The position numbers and the translations under genes are program-made. Positions 19,289 to 28,064 of a DNA stretch of 28,064 nt are shown piece by piece. Numbering within the stretch: position 1 is the first letter of the stretch; every line of letters begins with the position of its first letter. This stretch comes from a virus. The stretch lies in the IMG/VR virus record IMGVR_UViG_3300013018_000012, positions 1 through 28,064 of that record, one strand, 5' to 3'. Under the pieces are notes generated by a model, which was given only the letters and a program-made list of their open reading frames with translations, did no database searches and was not told the DNA's origin.

Positions 19289-22027
19289 ATGGGAGTAGGA
19301 GCATTAGTCGGAATAGCAGCAGGAGCTGCAGCAGCTAGTACTGTTACGGGAGTTACAGTAGCAGCTGGAGCGATGATTGGTTTTAGTGTGGGTAATTCTT
19401 ATGACAACTATAAAGAAGCAAAAGAATTTCAAGAAAGCATGAACCAATCAAAGAATTCGCCAACATATTCATTCGGACCGATAAGCAATACTAAAAGTCA
19501 TCAGATACCAGTACCGGTTGTCTATGGCGAAAATCTTGTTGCAGGAAACATAATCAATCAAAAAATACGCGGTGAAAATGATAATTTAATGGATCTTCAA
19601 GTTGGAATTTCAGAAGGCCCGATTGAATCAATAAAAAAAATTAAAGCTGACGATAAAACAATTAACGCAGAAACCAAATTAGGTTACAGAAAACAATCTG
19701 CCTGGTCGAAAAATGAACGCGGTCAAACATTCCCTTTCCTTGCCCACTATTCGACAACTCTTGACGCTAATAAATTAGAAACATCAGGAACTCCAACTAT
19801 GACCGCAATAATCAAGGGTAGGCATGTAAGAGTTTGGACTGGCAGCAGTTGGGTTACTAAATATAGTAATAATCCCGCGTGGTGTGTTTTAGATTTTATA
19901 AGCAAAATGAGATTTGGTTTTGGTGTTTCTGATGCTTTTATTGATTTAGAAAGTTTCAAAGAAGCTGCAGAATATGCTGATCAGCTTGTCGATGGAGAAA
20001 AAAGGTTTGAATTAGATTTTGCCATTGATGCTAAAAGTTCAGCATTAGACATTCTCAATGAAATGTTATCAACTTTTAGAGCATTTTTAATTTGGTCCAA
20101 TGGAAAATTAAAACTAAAAATTGATAAGCCAGATGTAGCAACTCAAAGCTTTGTATATTCTGATAATGAAGAAACCGACAATATTATTTCTGGTAGTTTC
20201 GCAAGGCGCGGAACATCACGCAAAGAAAGACTTAGAGAAGTAGTCGTTGAATATACAGATCCAGCTGAAAATTTTGAAACTATTGGAGCGAGATTTATTG
20301 ATAATAGTGTTCCTGGAGAATCGATTAAAACCATAACTCTTAATGGTATTAATCGTTTTAGTCAAGCAGGGCGAGAAGCTAGATATTATCAAAAGAAATC
20401 AAAGTTTTGCACTCAAATAATCAGTTTTGGAGCAAGCATAAAAGATATTGAAGCAGAAGTCGGCGATAAAATATTAGTTACCCATAAAAGACCAGGTTGG
20501 GTTGATAAACCTTTCCGAATTATGGAAATAGAAGAAGCCGAAGATCATAATATGACTATTACTGCTCTTGAATATAATGAATCTATTTATACTGATGATG
20601 GAGTTGTGCAGCAGGAGAATTACGGCTCTGAATTTAAGAATCCTTTTGAAGCTCCTAATGAAGTAAATAATCTTTCTGTTTCTGAATACGGTTATACTAC
20701 CATGGATGGGAATTTAATCAGTAATTTAATCGTAGATTTTGATATTCCTGATGATGAAAGAGTTGATCATGCAGTAATTGATTATTCAGAAGATGGTAAA
20801 AGTTATAGAATAGCCGGAGAAACAGAAGCTGACAGCTTTGAAATATCTAATTTAAAAGTTAATTCTCATTATATTGTAAGAGTCCGGACAGTTTCAAAAT
20901 ATAGAGGTATTACAAGTTCTGGAGTTACTTCAAGAAAAATAGTTATATCAGGTAAAGATAATAAACCTGCAGCACCTGGCACCTTCCAAGTCGCTCAAAA
21001 AGGTGCAAAACTAATATTCAAGTGGCAGGAAGTAGATGAGCCAGATGTCTTAGGTTATGAAATTAGAAAAGGAACAGACTGGGATAATGGGGAAGTTCTG
21101 GGGACTAAACTTACTGGAGATAGATGGACATCTGAGAACGAAATTGACGGAACTCATATGTATATGATTAAGACAATTGATAGAGTAAGGCAGTATTCAA
21201 GCAGCTTTACTTCTACAATTTTTGAAGTTTCTGGGACCGGCCAGGAGCTTAACATAATTATCGAAAGAAATGAACTTGATTATATAGACAATGCAACACT
21301 AGATAATATAGACAATATTAACGGCAAGATAGCATTTTTCCACATGTATAATTTAGAAGACTTAGCTGGCTATAATCTTGATGATTGGCCTGATATTCCT
21401 GCTTTTGCAGACGGTTTGCCTGATTATGACTTTAGTGCCGAATATATTACAGAAATTATTGATACAGTCAGAGTTGGCCGGACAGATATAAGACTCAAAA
21501 AAGATTGGTTTTTCCAGGACTTAGGATTAAGTTTATTGAGTTTTCCTAATCGCGGACTTGATGATTTTCCTAATAATAGTTTAGACAATCCGCCTGCTAT
21601 TTATGAAACCGAAACATATGTAAGGTTTTCCGATGATAATGTTGAATGGTCAGACTGGCAGACGTACATGACTGGAGAATATAAATTTAGATATTGCCAG
21701 TTTAAATTTACTTTTCGGCTGGAGACAGAAACTGCTGAATTTGAGCTTAATGAAATTAAACAGTTTTTTGATGTTCCTGACTTAGAGCTAGAAATTGATA
21801 ATCTGTCAGTACCAGTAGGCGGAACAACAATTAATTACAGCGATTACGGAGTAGAATATTATGAAATTCCTAGAGGGTATAATTATTACTTGCTGCAAAA
21901 TGGATCAACAATGAAATATGCTGATTTTCAAAACAAAACTATAGATAGTGTAGATATAGTTATAAAAGATATCAATAATAATGATGTCGGAGGAACTGCA
22001 GAAAAAATTATAATCGAAGGATATTAA
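19289..22027 (+). CDS. Tail-tip attachment protein, gpJ-like, with N-terminal gpI-like segment (912 aa)
   Basis: This is the central tail-tip/host-specificity protein. Residues 1-35 are hydrophobic and Ala/Gly-rich (ALVGIAAGAAAASTVTG), like lambda gpI and unlike the gpJ start, suggesting a fused gpI-type segment. SHQIPVPVVYGENLVAGNI begins the gpJ-type core, and LDFISKMRFGFGVSDAFIDL with LDILNEMLSTFRAFLIWSNG is typical for the family. About 455-555 and 556-655 look like two fibronectin type III domains (NNLSVSEYGYTT..., KPAAPGTFQVAQKGAKLIF...). The last 250 residues are beta-rich and acidic, with similar LDNIDN / LDNPP segments, and probably form a trimeric fiber. ATG behind GTGAGGTGAGG. Confidence 0.9.
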   Translation: MGVGALVGIAAGAAAASTVTGVTVAAGAMIGFSVGNSYDNYKEAKEFQESMNQSKNSPTYSFGPISNTKSHQIPVPVVYGENLVAGNIINQKIRGENDNLMDLQVGISEGPIESIKKIKADDKTINAETKLGYRKQSAWSKNERGQTFPFLAHYSTTLDANKLETSGTPTMTAIIKGRHVRVWTGSSWVTKYSNNPAWCVLDFISKMRFGFGVSDAFIDLESFKEAAEYADQLVDGEKRFELDFAIDAKSSALDILNEMLSTFRAFLIWSNGKLKLKIDKPDVATQSFVYSDNEETDNIISGSFARRGTSRKERLREVVVEYTDPAENFETIGARFIDNSVPGESIKTITLNGINRFSQAGREARYYQKKSKFCTQIISFGASIKDIEAEVGDKILVTHKRPGWVDKPFRIMEIEEAEDHNMTITALEYNESIYTDDGVVQQENYGSEFKNPFEAPNEVNNLSVSEYGYTTMDGNLISNLIVDFDIPDDERVDHAVIDYSEDGKSYRIAGETEADSFEISNLKVNSHYIVRVRTVSKYRGITSSGVTSRKIVISGKDNKPAAPGTFQVAQKGAKLIFKWQEVDEPDVLGYEIRKGTDWDNGEVLGTKLTGDRWTSENEIDGTHMYMIKTIDRVRQYSSSFTSTIFEVSGTGQELNIIIERNELDYIDNATLDNIDNINGKIAFFHMYNLEDLAGYNLDDWPDIPAFADGLPDYDFSAEYITEIIDTVRVGRTDIRLKKDWFFQDLGLSLLSFPNRGLDDFPNNSLDNPPAIYETETYVRFSDDNVEWSDWQTYMTGEYKFRYCQFKFTFRLETETAEFELNEIKQFFDVPDLELEIDNLSVPVGGTTINYSDYGVEYYEIPRGYNYYLLQNGSTMKYADFQNKTIDSVDIVIKDINNNDVGGTAEKIIIEGY

Positions 22028-22039
22028 AGGAGTGATGAC

Positions 22040-22741
22040 ATGTCTCAAGATTTTGATATAAGAACGACAAATAAAGATGGGCTTGATGCTAATGGGCCCG
22101 GTCTTAAACAAGTTTTATATGGCAACTTTTTAGCTATTGTAACTCAATTTGCAGGAGAGACTGCTCCAACCGACACTTATCAGGGAATGCCCTGGTTAGA
22201 CATTTCGGAAGGTTGGGCAAATGCAAAAATGAAGTTTTGGAATGGGTCTGAGTGGGTGCTGCAGAATGAATATAATCCTTATATTAAGGATTTAAGAGTT
22301 TCGAGAGGAACAAAAAACACTCTCTGGGAGCGGCTAGAAGTTGCTCTTAATGAAGACGGAACTATCAAATCTGACCTTGCTGAAAATATGACTGAATGGA
22401 TTGACAGCGCATTAACTGCAACTTATGTAAGCGCTGATACTTTTACAGTGCCTGGTGACTATATAGATACATTCGTCACTAATAGAAAAATCAAAGCAAC
22501 TCTAGACGCAAGCTCAGTTTATTCAGCTGTAGAATCAGCAAATTATGATGGAGTCAATGATGAAACAACTATAGTGCTGTTTGATACAGTGATAGATGCA
22601 ACAATTCAGAAAGTCGAATATGGGCTTGTGAAGGCTGGCCCGGACGGCTCAAATCCAGAAAACAACTTGATAGATGAGACAACAGGCGATATTTACGAGC
22701 TAAAAATGATTGACGGCTCATTAGCAATGGAGGTTAGATAA
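22040..22741 (+). CDS. Putative tail fiber/baseplate protein (233 aa)
   Basis: The ATG at 22040 follows AAGGAGTGATGAC. The N-terminal half contains GMPWLDISEGWANAKMKFWNG, a motif of short fiber or collar proteins that act as adapters. A region of repeated short beta strands follows (TYVSADTFTVPGDYIDTFVT and on), and the protein ends DIYELKMIDGSLAMEVR, a typical fiber C-terminus. It sits between the tip protein and the DGR target, so it may carry or flank the variable protein. The family name is uncertain. Confidence 0.65.
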   Translation: MSQDFDIRTTNKDGLDANGPGLKQVLYGNFLAIVTQFAGETAPTDTYQGMPWLDISEGWANAKMKFWNGSEWVLQNEYNPYIKDLRVSRGTKNTLWERLEVALNEDGTIKSDLAENMTEWIDSALTATYVSADTFTVPGDYIDTFVTNRKIKATLDASSVYSAVESANYDGVNDETTIVLFDTVIDATIQKVEYGLVKAGPDGSNPENNLIDETTGDIYELKMIDGSLAMEVR

Positions 22742-22744
22742 TAT

Positions 22745-23056
22745 ATGAGAGGTTTTTCAAAAGTGCTTAATTCAAGACAGGATTATGAAAATGTGATTAA
22801 TGACTTTGGCTACACACCAAAAGTAAAAAGAGCATACCAGGGGCTGCTAAATACAGCCAAAAAGTATGAGTTCGACAAAGAACTTGCAGCAGAATCTGAT
22901 AGAACTGGCCCTGAGCCTGAGTACAAAGTTATGACTCAGGAAGAAGAGGGAGAAGAAAAGATAGTGCAGTTCAAGCTGGTAGATAATCCAAACGGAAAGA
23001 TATTTAGATTAGGATTTACAGTCGATGAAGTCCAGGAGGTGATTGACCAATGTTAA
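22745..23056 (+). CDS. Hypothetical protein preceding the DGR target (103 aa)
   Basis: The ATG is preceded by GGAGGTTAGATAAT inside the end of the previous gene. The protein is small and soluble: an N-terminal helix (QDYENVINDFGYTPKVKR), a second helix (AYQGLLNTAKKYEFDKEL), an acidic linker (QEEEGEEKIVQFKL) and a short tail (FRLGFTVDEVQEVIDQC). Its end overlaps the variable protein gene by 7 bases, and the ribosome binding site of the variable protein lies in it. A tail-fiber adaptor or assembly chaperone is possible; no family is recognised. Confidence 0.65.
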   Translation: MRGFSKVLNSRQDYENVINDFGYTPKVKRAYQGLLNTAKKYEFDKELAAESDRTGPEPEYKVMTQEEEGEEKIVQFKLVDNPNGKIFRLGFTVDEVQEVIDQC

Positions 23057-24087
23057 GTTTCGTAGGAGCTGATTCACCTTCATTCTACAATTTCAAAGGA
23101 CATATAGAAAAAAGCGCTGCTGATGAAATTACAGTACCGCCTCTGGCCCTGAGGATTGACAGACAAAATCTTAAAAAAGAAACTGATACTATTCTGACAG
23201 CCGCTGACAATGATGGGAGCTTTGCAAGTTTCACTCTTGGTGAAAACTATTATATATATGCGCTGCAACCATCAGCTGATGCTGAGCCCGATTTTGTTAT
23301 TTCAATCAATTCTACTTACCCGGATGGTTATACTGAAAACAATTCAAGAAAAATTGGAGGTTTTCACTACGGGCGTATTAGAACCACTGCTCAAAGATAT
23401 GATGATACTGCTTCAATTGCGGTTAATATACTACCTAATTCAGTATGGTCTCTTAATTATCGACCGGCTTGCGATCCAACCGGAATGGTCAAAGTATCTA
23501 ACTTCTGGGCTGACATATACCTTGCCAGTGAAGGGAGTGGGACTTGGCCAGAAACTGAACTTGTCAGTGAATACAATGCAACTCCAGTGTCAGGAACTGA
23601 AGGTTATAACGATTATGATTTTATTAGAGGTCTTGCTAATGTTGGAAAAAGCAAATTGACCAGGCAAGAATGGTTGATGGCTGCTTACGGTAGCCCGGAA
23701 GGTCATGAAAATGACAATAATGCTGCATGGTCTAGCTCAAGCAACTCAGGCAGAACCGCAACTGGAACTGTAGAACAAGCAGTTTCTTGTTATAACCTAG
23801 TCGATTGTGCTGGTAACCTTTGGGAAAGGCTAGATGAGTATACTTATAGATATACTGGAACTACATCATTTAATTGGTTTGATGTTTTAAACGCGGGGAA
23901 AGACTCTTCGCATCAACACGGAGAAGCCTATATACAAGGAAATCCTTCTATTATTGGGGTCCTCGCCGGTGGCACCTTCAACCATGGTGGCCTCTGCGGT
24001 GCTCGGACGGTCAACTCGCACGGTAACCCGTGGCACGTGATCACTGACATTGGCGTGCGTGGCGCCTGTGCTCATCAGAGTGCCTGA
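23050..24087 (+). CDS. DGR variable protein, C-type-lectin/FGE-like, probable receptor-binding tip (345 aa)
   Basis: This is the target of the diversity-generating retroelement. Start ATG follows CAGGAGGTGATTG. Residues 1 to about 95 are a separate beta-rich domain, probably for attachment to the tail. RKIGGFHYGRIRT, LPNSVWSLNYRPAC, SNFWADIYLASEG, SKLTRQEWLMAAYGSPEG and LVDCAGNLWERLDEY mark the formylglycine-enzyme/C-type-lectin fold used by many DGR proteins such as TvpA. The C-terminal GGTFNHGGLCGARTVNSH and GNPWHVITDIGVRGACAH form the variable region. Nine residues there (309, 312, 314, 315, 324, 325, 329, 331, 333) differ from the template. In BPP-1 the equivalent protein Mtd binds the host receptor; the same is inferred here from the tail context. 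Confidence 0.93.
   Translation: MLSFVGADSPSFYNFKGHIEKSAADEITVPPLALRIDRQNLKKETDTILTAADNDGSFASFTLGENYYIYALQPSADAEPDFVISINSTYPDGYTENNSRKIGGFHYGRIRTTAQRYDDTASIAVNILPNSVWSLNYRPACDPTGMVKVSNFWADIYLASEGSGTWPETELVSEYNATPVSGTEGYNDYDFIRGLANVGKSKLTRQEWLMAAYGSPEGHENDNNAAWSSSSNSGRTATGTVEQAVSCYNLVDCAGNLWERLDEYTYRYTGTTSFNWFDVLNAGKDSSHQHGEAYIQGNPSIIGVLAGGTFNHGGLCGARTVNSHGNPWHVITDIGVRGACAHQSA
23958..24076 (+). repeat. DGR variable repeat (VR), 119 bp
   Basis: This aligns without gaps to the template repeat at 24514-24632 (constant offset 556). 109 of 119 positions are identical. The ten differences are at 23975, 23983, 23989, 23992, 24019, 24022, 24023, 24034, 24041 and 24046; in every case the template has A, and the VR has C (5), G (4) or T (1). 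The last 30 bases are identical and GC-rich, a likely initiation-of-mutagenic-homing segment. The base composition (mostly G+C) differs sharply from flanking DNA. Confidence 0.97.
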
Positions 24088-24088
24088 T
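24074..24088 (+). other. Short dyad at the 3' end of VR, candidate homing signal
   Basis: ATCAG (24074-24078) pairs with CTGAT (24084-24088) around a 5-base loop. It overlaps the last three VR bases and spans the stop codon. It is absent after the TR. BPP-1 needs a hairpin just downstream of its VR for efficient retrohoming; this one is shorter and could be chance. Confidence 0.3.
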
Positions 24089-24137
24089 AATCTGAAAATG
24101 GTTTTTGGTTAGTTTTTGAACTTGAAGGAGTGGTGAT

Positions 24138-24491
24138 TTGGCAGACACAGATGATCTAGTGATATTCAGAAAACATTATGACTTTACTCTTTATTTCTAT
24201 CCAGTAATAGACAACTTTCCAAAAAGAGAAAAATTTGCGATGTGCACCAAATTGAAAAATAAACCCTATAGAATTATGGATTTGATAATAGACGCAAATG
24301 AAACTCAAGGAAGCAAAATAAGGTTTTTAGACAGGATAGATGATGAGTTAAAAAAGCTAAAAGTTCAGATAAGGCTTGCTAAAGACATGCATTATTTATC
24401 AATAAGGAAACATAAAATTGTAGTAAAAAAATTAGACGAAATTGGCCGTCTTCTGGGCGGCTGGATTAAGTCTTGTAAAAATAAAAAATAA
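24138..24491 (+). CDS. avd: DGR accessory variability determinant (117 aa)
   Basis: This is a small, basic, four-helix-bundle protein of the Avd family. It forms a pentameric barrel, binds the RT and template RNA, and is required for mutagenic reverse transcription. The family pattern is clear: helix 1 FRKHYDFTLYFYPVIDNFPK, then REKFAMCTKLKNKPYRIMDL, then the diagnostic IDDELKKLKVQIRLAKDMHY and LSIRKHKIVVKKLDEIGRLL, ending GGWIKS. The TTG start follows AAGGAGTGGTG at 8 bases. Its stop lies 22 bases before the TR, the same order as in BPP-1. Confidence 0.95.
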   Translation: MADTDDLVIFRKHYDFTLYFYPVIDNFPKREKFAMCTKLKNKPYRIMDLIIDANETQGSKIRFLDRIDDELKKLKVQIRLAKDMHYLSIRKHKIVVKKLDEIGRLLGGWIKSCKNKK

Positions 24492-24513
24492 ATTTTACAG
24501 GGCTAAGGGCGTT

Positions 24514-24632
24514 GGTCCTCGCCGGTGGCAACTTCAACAATGGTAGCATCTGCGGTGCTCGGACGGTCAACTCGAACAATAACCCGTGGAACGTGAACAC
24601 TAACATTGGCGTGCGTGGCGCCTGTGCTCATC
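24514..24632 (+). repeat. DGR template repeat (TR), 119 bp
   Basis: This is the invariant template transcribed into RNA and copied by the RT with adenine-specific errors. It contains 26 adenines, of which 10 are changed in the current VR. Read in the VR frame it would encode AGGNFNNGSICGARTVNS, NNNPWNVNTNIGVRGACAH; the asparagine (AAY) codons are the classic DGR targets. No adenine falls in a third codon position. G+C is 68 of 119 bases, against a strongly AT-rich background. Confidence 0.97.
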
Positions 24633-24863
24633 TAAAAATTTATCAGACAGTATGGGGTCAAGGCCTCTGCTGCAGTGTTCAAAAAGATGAACAGGCCTTT
24701 AGTCCTTCCTGAGATACATTTTGTCCCTCCAGGAAAAAATATAAATCACTAATTAGATAGCAAGTAGCGAAATATCGAAAGCTGTCACGATTAGTTATGA
24801 GCTCGCTCTCATTTGAGCGGGCTTGAATATTTCACCCAAATATAGAGAAAGTGGTGATTATTT
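24633..24863 (+). ncRNA. DGR template-RNA 3' spacer, structured, between TR and RT
   Basis: This 231-base gap has no credible gene. Hairpins visible: 24660-24665 with 24694-24699 (AAGGCC/GGCCTT), enclosing 24676-24680 with 24689-24693 (TGTTC/GAACA); 24706-24711 with 24730-24735 (TTCCTG/CAGGAA); and 24801-24808 with 24815-24822 (GCTCGCTC/GAGCGGGC, one G-U). In BPP-1 the spacer after TR folds and primes cDNA synthesis with Avd and RT, so this region is probably part of the functional RNA. No clear promoter was seen for it. Confidence 0.65.
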
Positions 24864-25976
24864 ATTCCTAAGACAGTCAAAAATTTGTTTGAGAAGATAA
24901 CTGATTATCATAACTTGGAAATAGCAACTCAAAATGCTCAAAAGAGAAAAAGATATAAACCAGAAGTGTTAAAGTTTAATTACAATTTAGAGAGAAATCT
25001 TATTGAGATACAAAATGAATTGATGTGGAAAACATATGAACAGGGAAAATACAGACAGTTTTATGTTTATGAGCCGAAAAAGAGACTGATTATGGCCTTG
25101 CCTTTTCGTGACAGAGTGGTCCAGTGGAGCATATATCAAAACCTTTACCCGATATTTGATAAGACATTTTATAGATATAGCGGCGCTTGTCGCAAAGGAA
25201 AAGGAACTCATTTTACTGCATATCAGCTGCAGGACAAGTTAAGAATAATGGACCGCAAGCCAGGGAAAACATATTTTTTAAAAGCTGACGTATCAAAATA
25301 TTTTTATCGGATAGTTCATAAAAGATTATTTCAACTAATCAAAAGGAAAATCAGCTGCAGAGATACATTAGAATTAATCTGGCAGATAATCAAAAGTGAA
25401 GATGGTGAATTTGGCATCCAGTTAGGGGATCACTTCTTTGAAAATGAAAAAATCAAAGGAATTGGCACACCAATTGGTAACCTAATGAGTCAGCTTTTTG
25501 CAAATATTTATCTTGATTTTCTAGATAAGTTTGTAAAACACACTCTAAAAGTTAAATACTATGTTCGTTATATGGATGACTTTGTAATTTTAGGAAAAGA
25601 CAAAAATAAACTTCATACTATTAGACAGGAAATAGAGATTTTTCTTGCTGATTATCTCCAGCTGCAGCTTAACAATAAAACTACCGTCGGCCATGTAGAT
25701 GAAGGGATAGATTTTTGCGGATATGTTTTATATCCGAGTTATAGTAAATTGAGAAAATCAACTAAAAAGAAAATGAAAAAACGATTTAAGTATCTTAACA
25801 AAAAATATTTTGAAGGGAAGGTGGATATCGAGGATATTAATGCCAGTGTTAATTCCTATCTGGGAATTATTAAACACTGCGATAGCTATAATTTAAAAAT
25901 GTCAGTGATAAGTAAATTAGATGATCATATACTGGAACAACTTGATTTAGGCGACCGGTTAAAATTAAAAAGTTGA
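24864..25976 (+). CDS. DGR reverse transcriptase (about 370 aa), probable ATT start
   Basis: This is a retroelement reverse transcriptase that makes mutagenic cDNA from the TR RNA. Motifs in 370-aa numbering: TYFLKADVSKYFYRI with catalytic D142, GTPIGNLMSQLFANIYLD (204-210, where DGR RTs have I/L-G-N-x-x-S-Q instead of Q-G), and YVRYMDDFVILG with YMDD at 236-239. N-terminal KRYKPEVLKFNYNLE and YEPKKRLIMALPFRDRVVQW are typical of the family. The conserved N-terminus (KNLFEKITD) starts before the first TTG (24885). An in-frame ATT at 24864, about 8 bases after GTGGTG, restores PKTVKNLFEKITD and is my choice. The length is normal for the family. Confidence 0.95.
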   Translation: MPKTVKNLFEKITDYHNLEIATQNAQKRKRYKPEVLKFNYNLERNLIEIQNELMWKTYEQGKYRQFYVYEPKKRLIMALPFRDRVVQWSIYQNLYPIFDKTFYRYSGACRKGKGTHFTAYQLQDKLRIMDRKPGKTYFLKADVSKYFYRIVHKRLFQLIKRKISCRDTLELIWQIIKSEDGEFGIQLGDHFFENEKIKGIGTPIGNLMSQLFANIYLDFLDKFVKHTLKVKYYVRYMDDFVILGKDKNKLHTIRQEIEIFLADYLQLQLNNKTTVGHVDEGIDFCGYVLYPSYSKLRKSTKKKMKKRFKYLNKKYFEGKVDIEDINASVNSYLGIIKHCDSYNLKMSVISKLDDHILEQLDLGDRLKLKS

Positions 25977-26036
25977 TGTGATACACAGATAAACAAAAAC
26001 TTTTGCCTTGTAGCGGGGCTGTTTTGAGGTGATTTG

Positions 26037-26411
26037 ATGGAAAGCAAAGGGCACAGTATTGATGATTGCCCCTTAAGAGAAAAAATAGAAGATAATCATG
26101 ATAGATCAAAAGATAACGAAAGAAAAATTAAAGAGCTGATGTCAGGAGACTGGTACTCAAACAAAGAGCTATACAAAATGATACAAAGCTTAACTTCTCA
26201 GCTGACTGAGTTCAATGGAAAATTTGACAAATATAATGGACTAATTGAAGAAAGAAAAAAAGACAGGAAATTACTTAATCAACTTAATGAAAAAGTAAAT
26301 AAAATAGATACTAAAGGAAAAACAAAAAAGGAAATTACTACGAATTGGAGAGAATGGATTGGCTGGGTAATTGCAATTTTATTAGCATTATCAAAACTGG
26401 GGGTTTTTTAA
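26037..26411 (+). CDS. XhlA-like membrane-anchored coiled-coil protein (124 aa)
   Basis: The ATG follows GAGGTGATTTG. The N-terminus is polar (ESKGHSIDDCPLREKIE), then long coiled-coil helices (LTSQLTEFNGKFDKYNGLIE, KLLNQLNEKVNKIDTKG). A single C-terminal membrane segment follows (WIGWVIAILLALSKLGVF). This layout, just before lysin and holin genes, is that of the haemolysin XhlA-like family of phages, which works with the lysis proteins. It could alternatively be a tail-associated protein, but the order argues for lysis. Confidence 0.7.
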   Translation: MESKGHSIDDCPLREKIEDNHDRSKDNERKIKELMSGDWYSNKELYKMIQSLTSQLTEFNGKFDKYNGLIEERKKDRKLLNQLNEKVNKIDTKGKTKKEITTNWREWIGWVIAILLALSKLGVF

Positions 26412-26412
26412 A

Positions 26413-26931
26413 ATGGATAATATTTTTAAAAAAGCTTTTGAAGAAGTAATGGAAATTGAAGGTGGCTATGTTAACCACAAAGATGATCCTGGTGGTGCCA
26501 CTAATTTTGGCATCACAGAAGCAGTAGCAAGAAGAAATGGCTATGAAGGAGATATGAGAGACTTAAAACTGCACCAGGCCAGAGACATCTATTATTATGA
26601 ATTTTGGCTTGACCAGAAATATAACAAAATTAAAAACAGAGATGTAGCAATTGAAATGTTTGATCAGGCAGTAAACATGGGACCTGGCCGAGCTAATAGA
26701 AATTTACAAAAATCTTATAATTTACTTTCTGATAATCAAATTTCAGTTGATGGAGCAATCGGCCCTAATACTTTAAAAGCTGTTAATAGCTGTAATAAGC
26801 CGGTGGGATTGTTTAATCTACTTAATGGCTATCAAATTATGCATTACATTAACCTTGCTGAAAACAGCCAAAAATATAGGTCATTTATTCGTGGCTGGGT
26901 TAATAAAAGAATAGAAATTATAAGGAAGTGA
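26413..26931 (+). CDS. Endolysin, glycoside hydrolase 108 type (172 aa)
   Basis: This peptidoglycan-cutting lysozyme of the GH108 (DUF847) family matches along most of its length. FEEVMEIEGGYVNHKDDPGG carries catalytic E16; TNFGITEAVARRNGY, AIEMFDQAVNMGPGRANRNL and the C-terminal domain VDGAIGPNTLKAV (a peptidoglycan-binding-3-like fold) follow. There is no signal peptide, so export relies on a holin. It starts one base after the previous stop and overlaps the next short frame region. Confidence 0.93.
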   Translation: MDNIFKKAFEEVMEIEGGYVNHKDDPGGATNFGITEAVARRNGYEGDMRDLKLHQARDIYYYEFWLDQKYNKIKNRDVAIEMFDQAVNMGPGRANRNLQKSYNLLSDNQISVDGAIGPNTLKAVNSCNKPVGLFNLLNGYQIMHYINLAENSQKYRSFIRGWVNKRIEIIRK

Positions 26932-26936
26932 CTACT

Positions 26937-27176
26937 ATGGAAGAACAAAAAGTAAATGAAGTTAATCTAAAAGAAGACTCTAATAATAACAATATTCCTG
27001 ACTGGGCAGAGTTTACAGCTACATATCTAATTGCAGCTGTTTGCGTTAGTATGGCTGTAGCTGGTTACATCAGGCAGGATTTAGACGGTTCAATTATTAA
27101 ATGGTTGTTAGGTTTTGGTGTCGTTCTGACTGGCGGCCGTGATGCTATCAAAGCTTTCATTAAAAGAAAGGTGTAA
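26937..27176 (+). CDS. Holin-like small membrane protein (79 aa)
   Basis: The ATG at 26937 lies 10 bases behind AAGGA; a GTG at 26928 is the alternative. The N-terminus is polar and acidic (EEQKVNEVNLKEDSNNNN), followed by two membrane segments (TATYLIAAVCVSMAVAGYI, then WLLGFGVVLTGGRDAI) and a basic tail (KAFIKRKV). This is the two-helix layout of class II holins, which make the membrane hole that lets the endolysin through. It directly follows the endolysin gene. Confidence 0.75.
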   Translation: MEEQKVNEVNLKEDSNNNNIPDWAEFTATYLIAAVCVSMAVAGYIRQDLDGSIIKWLLGFGVVLTGGRDAIKAFIKRKV

Positions 27177-27180
27177 TAAA

Positions 27181-27621
27181 ATGTACCTAATAAAATACTT
27201 GCTTTATATCTTAGAGCACAAATGTAATGTTTTTAAAATCTCAATTAAAAAAGGATATTATTTGCATGCTTTAACTCATGATTTAAGTAAGTTTAGCGGC
27301 AGTGAATTCTTGGCGTATGCTGGTTATTTCTACAAAGATAAGGCAAAATATAAACATCGCTTTGAAATGGCTTGGAGACATCATTATTACAACAATCCAC
27401 ATCATTGGCAGCATTGGCTGGATACAGATGGGAATCCAATAGAAATTCCAGATAAATACATTGAACAAATGATAATTGACTGGGAGGCTATGGGTATCAA
27501 ATTTAATGACACTGCAAAAGAATATTATTTAAAAAATAAAAATAAAATAAAATTAACTCCGCATACAAGAACTAATCTAGAAATAAAATTAAAAGTGGGT
27601 GGTCAAAATGCTAAAAACTAA
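27181..27621 (+). CDS. DUF5662-like phage protein (146 aa)
   Basis: The ATG at 27181 follows AAGGTGTAATAA; a longer frame from 27139 has no ribosome binding site. It has His-rich conserved motifs: HALTHDLSKFSGSEFLAY with H33, D34 and K37, and AWRHHYYNNPHHWQHWL with H67, H68, H74 and H75. This is the pattern of the DUF5662 family found near phage lysis and late genes. The His/Asp spacing suggests metal binding, HD-domain-like, but no reaction is known. Its end overlaps the spanin-like gene. Confidence 0.82.
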   Translation: MYLIKYLLYILEHKCNVFKISIKKGYYLHALTHDLSKFSGSEFLAYAGYFYKDKAKYKHRFEMAWRHHYYNNPHHWQHWLDTDGNPIEIPDKYIEQMIIDWEAMGIKFNDTAKEYYLKNKNKIKLTPHTRTNLEIKLKVGGQNAKN

Positions 27622-27964
27622 GCATAAAATCATATTAATTGTTATTGCTGCACTGTTAGTTATTGGTGCTCTATTTTTTGGAGGTTGGAAGCTGGCTTCT
27701 CTTTTAGGTATCGGAGCTGCAGCTGGTGGGTACAAAGCTGCAAGCAAACAGGTCCAGAAGCAAGCTGATCAGGAAAAAGAAGTAGTTAATGAAGTAGAAA
27801 AGGATATCGATAATAGAAAAGAGAAAGACCAGGAGCTGCAGAAAAAGTCAGAAAATCGCAAAGAAAAAGCTGAGAAACTTAATAATAATCAAAAAAACAG
27901 GCAGAAAAGAGCTGAAAGTTTAGAGGATAGGCTTAATAACCACACAGAAGGTGATAACAATTAA
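27608..27964 (+). CDS. Inner-membrane spanin-like protein (i-spanin, 118 aa)
   Basis: The ATG at 27608 follows GTGGGTGG; GTG at 27599 is the alternative. The N-terminus is a single membrane anchor (LIVIAALLVIGALFFGGWKL) with positive residues before it. The rest is a long charged coiled coil (KQADQEKEVVNEVEKDIDN and on, Asn/Lys/Glu-rich). It is in the Rz-like position, after holin, and its 3' end overlaps a small signal-peptide frame, like Rz/Rz1. If true, the host has an outer membrane. A plain membrane-anchored coiled-coil protein is the other option. Confidence 0.6.
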   Translation: MLKTKHKIILIVIAALLVIGALFFGGWKLASLLGIGAAAGGYKAASKQVQKQADQEKEVVNEVEKDIDNRKEKDQELQKKSENRKEKAEKLNNNQKNRQKRAESLEDRLNNHTEGDNN

Positions 27965-28064
27965 ACGTCTACTTGTATTTTTAATAGTTTTATCTTTGCT
28001 TTTTGTGCCGATTGTTGTCAATGCTCAGGAGTTAGATCCTCCGAAAGAATATGATCAACTCCTG
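27951..28064 (+). CDS. Signal-peptide protein overlapping the i-spanin gene, possible o-spanin, truncated by window end
   Basis: Thirty-eight codons are visible. A hydrophobic signal sequence (KRLLVFLIVLSLLFVPIVV) ends in a VNAQ type cleavage site, followed by ELDPPKEYDQLL. It overlaps the end of the previous gene by 14 bases in another frame, which recalls Rz1 embedded in Rz, and its mature part begins proline-rich. There is no lipobox cysteine in the visible part, so it is not a standard lipoprotein o-spanin. The start is uncertain: GTG at 27951 or ATT at 27960 behind GAAGGTG. Confidence 0.5.
   Translation, partial: MITIKRLLVFLIVLSLLFVPIVVNAQELDPPKEYDQLL

Follow-up and report, generated by a model that had tools for sequence, protein, structure and literature searches.

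The window, that is, the whole 28,064-nucleotide stretch of the virus record analysed here, carries a cassette in which an Mtd-like target gene, avd, the TR, a 252-base spacer holding a structured RNA and a reverse transcriptase gene follow one another in this order. The features assigned are as follows:

23050..24087, plus strand: target gene, encoding an Mtd-like tail/receptor-binding protein of 345 aa; its 3' end is the VR
23958..24076, plus strand: variable repeat (VR), codons 303-342 of the target, a 119-base repeat of the TR
24052..24076, plus strand: 3' end of the VR, a GC-rich stretch plus CTGTGCTCATC, IMH-like; the base after CTGTG is C, as in the TR
24088..24112, plus strand: conserved non-coding block TAATCTGAAAATGGTTTTTGGTTAG 3' of the VR, found in the group alignment at the position of the GRNA hairpin of Bordetella phage BPP-1
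24138..24491, plus strand: avd, accessory variability determinant, 117 aa (Pfam bAvd, E 1.6e-28; PHROG 3206 'Avd protein of DGR', E 5.3e-30)
24514..24632, plus strand: template repeat (TR), identified by 119 identical bases in 6 other contigs and by TR-to-VR tracking
24627..24794, plus strand: spacer RNA directly 3' of the TR, Rfam RT-14-like (46.7 bits, E 2e-4)
24885..25976, plus strand: DGR-type reverse transcriptase, 363 aa (RVT_1, E 5e-22; PHROG 1423, E 5.6e-132)

The target matched Pfam mtd_2nd (E 5.6e-25), PHROG 11262, a tail protein family (E 8.6e-51), and, by sequence match to solved structures, PDB Mtd 1yu4 over residues 52-342 (E 1.6e-13). Its AlphaFold2 model, built on an 18-row alignment, reached a mean pLDDT of 31 and was set aside. 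From the match to Mtd structures and the variable residues in common with BPP-1, the target domain is a candidate for the C-type lectin fold. The window reverse transcriptase matched the solved chain 8ub7, labelled 'Reverse transcriptase' (E 2.5e-51), which we take to be the BPP-1 enzyme. Of the elements by which a diversity-generating retroelement (DGR) is recognized, repeats differing at TR adenines, a reverse transcriptase gene beside the TR and an avd gene were found.

The phage infects Halanaerobium: contig C32 of an H. saccharolyticum genome encodes a protein 100 % identical to its large terminase over 609 aa, and the same contig has a DGR reverse transcriptase. A terminase match was present in 2 of 12 genomes of the genus, and so was a match to the reverse transcriptase. 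The phages are probably temperate, because an integrase was detected in three of the five virus records searched, a set separate from the window. They are also mosaic: over positions 19289-23049, which hold the upstream tail genes, 525 of 3761 bases differ between the window and the sister contigs L023-L026, and from the target gene on (23050-28064) the same sequences are nearly identical outside the VR. H. saccharolyticum MA284_T2 has two DGR cassettes of the reverse transcriptase clade of the window, L040 on C32 and L067 on C6, and only L040 has a target like that of the window. In H. salsuginis ATCC 51327 (L041, 7965-8399) approximately 1.4 kb has been deleted, the TR included, so that the first part of avd runs into the reverse transcriptase gene near the YMDD motif; the VR left behind is frozen, differing from the window TR at 10 A and 2 non-A positions, and the locus is a natural dead DGR. 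A large metagenome survey (PMC8144416) may include these contigs in its data. No published work on Halanaerobium DGRs or 'RT-14 RNA' was found in the literature outside most subscription journals.

The RT-14 match of the window spacer (46.7 bits) is slightly under the Rfam gathering score of 48.1. The Rfam spacer scan covered 11 sources, comprising nine related DGR loci, BPP-1 (L068) and YPCBV-1 (L069). RT-14 was found right 3' of the TR in all nine relatives, four of them above the gathering score, the BPP-1 spacer was assigned to Phage_DGR and that of YPCBV-1 to neither family. RNAalifold applied to an alignment of 10 spacers gave 52 pairs with compensatory changes in 23 (shuffled controls, mean 9.8; slid controls, 1 to 7), although one alignment served both to derive the structure and to score it, which favours the structure. 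The first helix is formed by the 3' end of the TR pairing with the spacer. A further conserved hairpin (helix 8) lies at approximately 24800-24825, past the spacer RNA and ahead of the reverse transcriptase gene, and may be a partial terminator, but the consensus scan did not list it. Complementarity between the DNA 3' of the VR and the spacer 3' of the TR was also considered; the short matches seen by eye came partly from stop codons and this candidate was dropped.

Adenine-directed variation of the VR

Scripted re-alignment of the VR (23958-24076) with the TR (24514-24632) gave 119 ungapped columns with 10 mismatches, and the TR base was A at every one of them (A>C 5, A>G 4, A>T 1). With 26 A among the 119 TR bases, the probability that ten random mismatches all fall on A is 5.0e-8. 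The initial annotation, made from the same stretch, had placed all ten differences at template adenines and had translated them as N309T, N312H, S314G, I315L, N324H, N325G, N329H, N331I and N333D; the position of the differences, the nine substitutions and the statement that every change is non-synonymous were reproduced in full, and its count of 16 unchanged template adenines agrees with 26 minus 10. The further statement on a large possible repertoire needs a slight correction. Twenty-five TR adenines lie upstream of the GC-rich block, corresponding to a theoretical ~10^14.8 proteins, but the usable positions are probably somewhat fewer than 26: the last TR adenine, 24630, is within the 3' initiation region and was unchanged in all five VRs found on the identical TR, as were 24540, 24563, 24570 and 24591. 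The G+C content is 57 % in the TR, 65 % in the VR and 35 % in the phage.

The VR and TR are the sole long repeat family within positions 22700-26500, and no third copy was found in the 28,064-base virus record. Because the two copies are adjacent direct repeats with 92 % identity, an ordinary partial duplication of the gene might be considered, with the copies drifting apart and the adenine bias arising by chance or from host mutation bias. The placement of ten out of ten differences at A argues against it, and the same bias was observed in many further pairs. Among 24 loci examined, 19 had a VR/TR pair (none was found in L007, L009, L021, L022 and L041), and these were reduced to 17 distinct pairs. 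Together they contain 194 differences, 184 at template A; by template base, 184 of 436 adenines and 10 of 1529 other bases were changed. The ten non-adenine exceptions divide equally between the 3' edge of the repeat and the interior of the VR (interior: two in L003, one each in L013, L019 and L020). No meaningful share of the differences was thus at other template bases, as would have contradicted the initial annotation.

The TR is identical over 119 bases in seven contigs, namely the window and six others with complete VRs, and these carry five VR haplotypes, four of which sit in otherwise almost identical 5 kb. The VR of the window differs from those of L018, L003 and L004 at 14, 18 and 15 of 119 positions, respectively, whereas only one base differs among the 4,896 that make up the target outside the VR, avd, the TR, the spacer, the reverse transcriptase gene and 2,088 bases beyond. 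Such nearly invariant flanks, with one TR shared by seven contigs, make a drifting gene duplication extremely improbable. The comparison with related genomes proposed in the initial annotation thus gave the same picture as the window: in the five haplotypes on the identical TR 49 of 51 differences (117 columns compared) are at A, both exceptions being in L003, and 21 of the 26 TR adenines were changed at least once. Its reading of the adenine substitutions as the signature of DGR mutagenic homing is supported by the VR/TR pairs of the relatives and by the presence of the partner genes. The seven contigs with one identical template and five VRs constitute a clean natural experiment, which enables direct study of how adenine rewriting spreads over a receptor-binding surface in the wild.

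The outcome at the second A of AAC and AAT codons was also counted. In 16 pairs of the clade 38 of 51 changes at the second A of AAC were to G and three to C, whereas 7 of 18 changes at the second A of AAT were to C (Fisher p 0.002). The contrast was weaker in nine other phage DGRs (6 of 33 changes to C versus 6 of 13, p 0.07). These counts, set beside the errors profiled for BPP-1 in E. coli (PMC12875486), come from pairs that are not independent and from natural VRs filtered by selection.

Direction of transfer and probable recent activity

Two more distant relatives allowed the source of the VR to be traced. Outside the VR, 160 of 908 target-gene positions in L006 differ from the window, but at all 91 non-adenine VR columns the two agree (chance 2e-8). 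The L012 TR has eight differences from the window TR, and at all six comparable non-A sites where the two TRs differ the L012 VR equals its own TR; the only other non-A VR difference in this locus is the 3' base after CTGTG. Each VR appears to be copied from its own TR, as ordinary drift does not give the pattern of L006 and L012. Judged from these alignments, transfer runs one way, from TR to VR, the VR being variable and the TR constant. The element probably copied its TR into the VR recently, since the VR follows its own TR at non-A sites and near-identical phages differ in the VR. Close relatives with an identical template have differently rewritten copies, so the DGR appears to have worked in nature.

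The same variation could have been left by a DGR that was active in the past and is now inactive, if VR alleles were shuffled between phages by homologous recombination. The mosaicism described above, with a nearly identical cassette behind diverged tail genes, is compatible with this explanation, as are the dead DGR of H. salsuginis, the lack of a BPP-1-type hairpin and the occurrence of the same VR in L003, L005 and L016 from different metagenomes. Such an exchange could have moved nothing but the VR, because around the differing VRs the rest of the target, the TR, the reverse transcriptase gene and the 2,088 bases beyond are identical and the single difference is in avd. The reverse transcriptase, Avd and the spacer RNA pairs are moreover intact and conserved, and we consider an inactive DGR unlikely. 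As a separate observation, the haplotype common to L003, L005 and L016 was recovered from three metagenomes, therefore a given VR can persist or spread. The end of L029 and the start of L007, both from metagenome 3300009575, break inside the VR, a pattern to be expected from a sample with several VR alleles or from an assembly interrupted by the repeat.

Taken with the cassette structure, these data identify the locus almost certainly as a DGR that rewrites the 3' end of an Mtd-like tail gene in a probably temperate tailed phage of Halanaerobium. The kind of system is already known; the DGR of the window is well preserved and probably recently active. By analogy with BPP-1, from which we infer what the enzymes do, that cDNA is primed in the spacer and that the target binds the receptor, the avd-TR-spacer region would be transcribed, and the reverse transcriptase together with Avd would start copying the TR into cDNA from the structured spacer. 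Misincorporation by the reverse transcriptase opposite template adenines would give a mutated cDNA, which would take the place of the VR in the tail gene, the TR staying unchanged. Over repeated rounds rewriting could reach as many as 15 codons in the putative lectin-like domain at the C-terminus, and the phage may thereby sample new receptor specificities.

The 3' end of the VR and its flank

The GC-rich stretch GGCGTGCGTGGCGCCTGTG is present in both VR and TR of the window. A BPP-1-type target site also has a 21-base element whose VR/TR mismatches determine direction. In BPP-1 the first VR/TR difference past the common GC-rich stretch is the base after CTGTG, A in the VR and C in the TR, and the same A/C difference was found in L008, L010, L012, L013, L015, L039 and L040. 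The VR has C at this position in the window, L003, L004, L006, L014, L018, L031 and also L011, and T in L028. The VR and TR of the window diverge only from 24077 on, the A/C difference having been lost in the window lineage. Since the window, L003, L004, L006 and L018 have different VRs on one TR, the base after CTGTG would seem dispensable for further diversification, barring an exchange of VRs by recombination.

Efficient homing was reported to require an inverted repeat, GC-rich and with a GRNA loop, directly 3' of the VR; such repeats were nearly always present, and disruption of the stem caused a more than 1000-fold loss in tropism switching (Guo et al., PMC3240598). The hairpin scan detected no significant GRNA-loop stem within 90 bases 3' of the VR in any of the 21 loci of the Halanaerobium group, three of which have a weak 6-pair stem (p 0.05). 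Such a stem was found in 8 of 12 DGR loci outside the group (p 0.001 or less); the four without it are L019, L020, L071 and L075, although in L071 a stem of 9 pairs closes a 7-base loop. A wider scan for hairpins with loops of 3-6 bases gave no significant hairpin in six group members. DNA folding 3' of the VR was no better than that of shuffled sequences in the four group members analysed (z -0.13 on this strand and -0.84 on the other in the window, 0.37 in L012, 0.42 in L010 and 1.17 in L040), in contrast to BPP-1 (-4.58), L073 (-2.70), L074 (-2.57), L017 (-4.09) and L067 (-3.07); YPCBV-1 was weak (-1.31). In the reverse transcriptase tree the nearest sisters, L067 and L017, have the hairpin, and their targets show no match to that of the window. 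Since these sisters keep it, the tree, in which the fork joining L067 has support of 93/94 and several forks are unresolved, fits a loss of the hairpin within the group.

The absence of the hairpin is unusual for a phage element but not unheard of, because the stem-loop has been described as not strictly required (PMC12875486) and as a requirement of a subset of DGRs (PMC3521204). The block TAATCTGAAAATGGTTTTTGGTTAG (24088..24112) is conserved across the group and present in a single copy in the window. We tentatively propose that the DGRs of this group recognise their target without a stem-loop, and those of the window lineage also without the first VR/TR difference, and yet diversify, with the T/G-rich block after the VR as an alternative recognition site. 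That homing here needs no stem-loop and that another feature of the target, e.g. the TAATCTG block by the VR, substitutes for it, is a refinement of the DGR reading that we regard as possible but doubtful. The contrast between 0 of 21 and 8 of 12 loci, the folding results and the conservation of the block speak for it. On the other hand, 4 of the 12 outside loci also have no GRNA-loop stem, so such loci may not be rare; the block could instead act in avd expression, and PMC3240598 and PMC12875486 describe residual homing of BPP-1 without the stem. If the absence of the hairpin is real, the group tests what a DGR truly needs for target recognition.

Comparison with known DGRs

Close known elements are the two cassettes of H. 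saccharolyticum MA284_T2, L040 and L067, whose reverse transcriptases are 72 and 71 % identical to that of the window and whose VR/TR differences are all at A (13 of 13 and 16 of 16, respectively). L040 has a homologous target and is likewise without the hairpin, whereas L067 keeps a GATA-loop hairpin and its target has no match to that of the window. Among the targets of the phage collection, that of Chromohalobacter phage YPCBV-1 is the most similar (46.7 % over 83 %), and 14 of 14 differences in this phage are at A; in contrast to the window, it retains a GGCA-loop hairpin 3' of its VR, and the two reverse transcriptases are 35 % identical.

The BPP-1 DGR (mtd-avd-TR-brt) differs from that of the window in several respects. 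The window reverse transcriptase is 35 % identical to Brt over 337 aa and the target 27 % identical to its counterpart, the host is Halanaerobium, the spacer matches RT-14 and not Phage_DGR, the downstream GRNA hairpin is absent and the VR has the TR base after CTGTG. Both systems share the gene order, an Mtd-like target with the VR at its 3' end, the TR between the gene in the avd position and the reverse transcriptase gene, changes at template adenines and the CTGTG motif at the 3' end of VR and TR. When 33 codons of the two TRs are aligned without gaps, 9 of the 10 AAY codons of the window fall on AAY codons of BPP-1, whose TR also has 10 (p 2.5e-6). Because of this coincidence the variable surface of the window target is predicted to be homologous to that of BPP-1.
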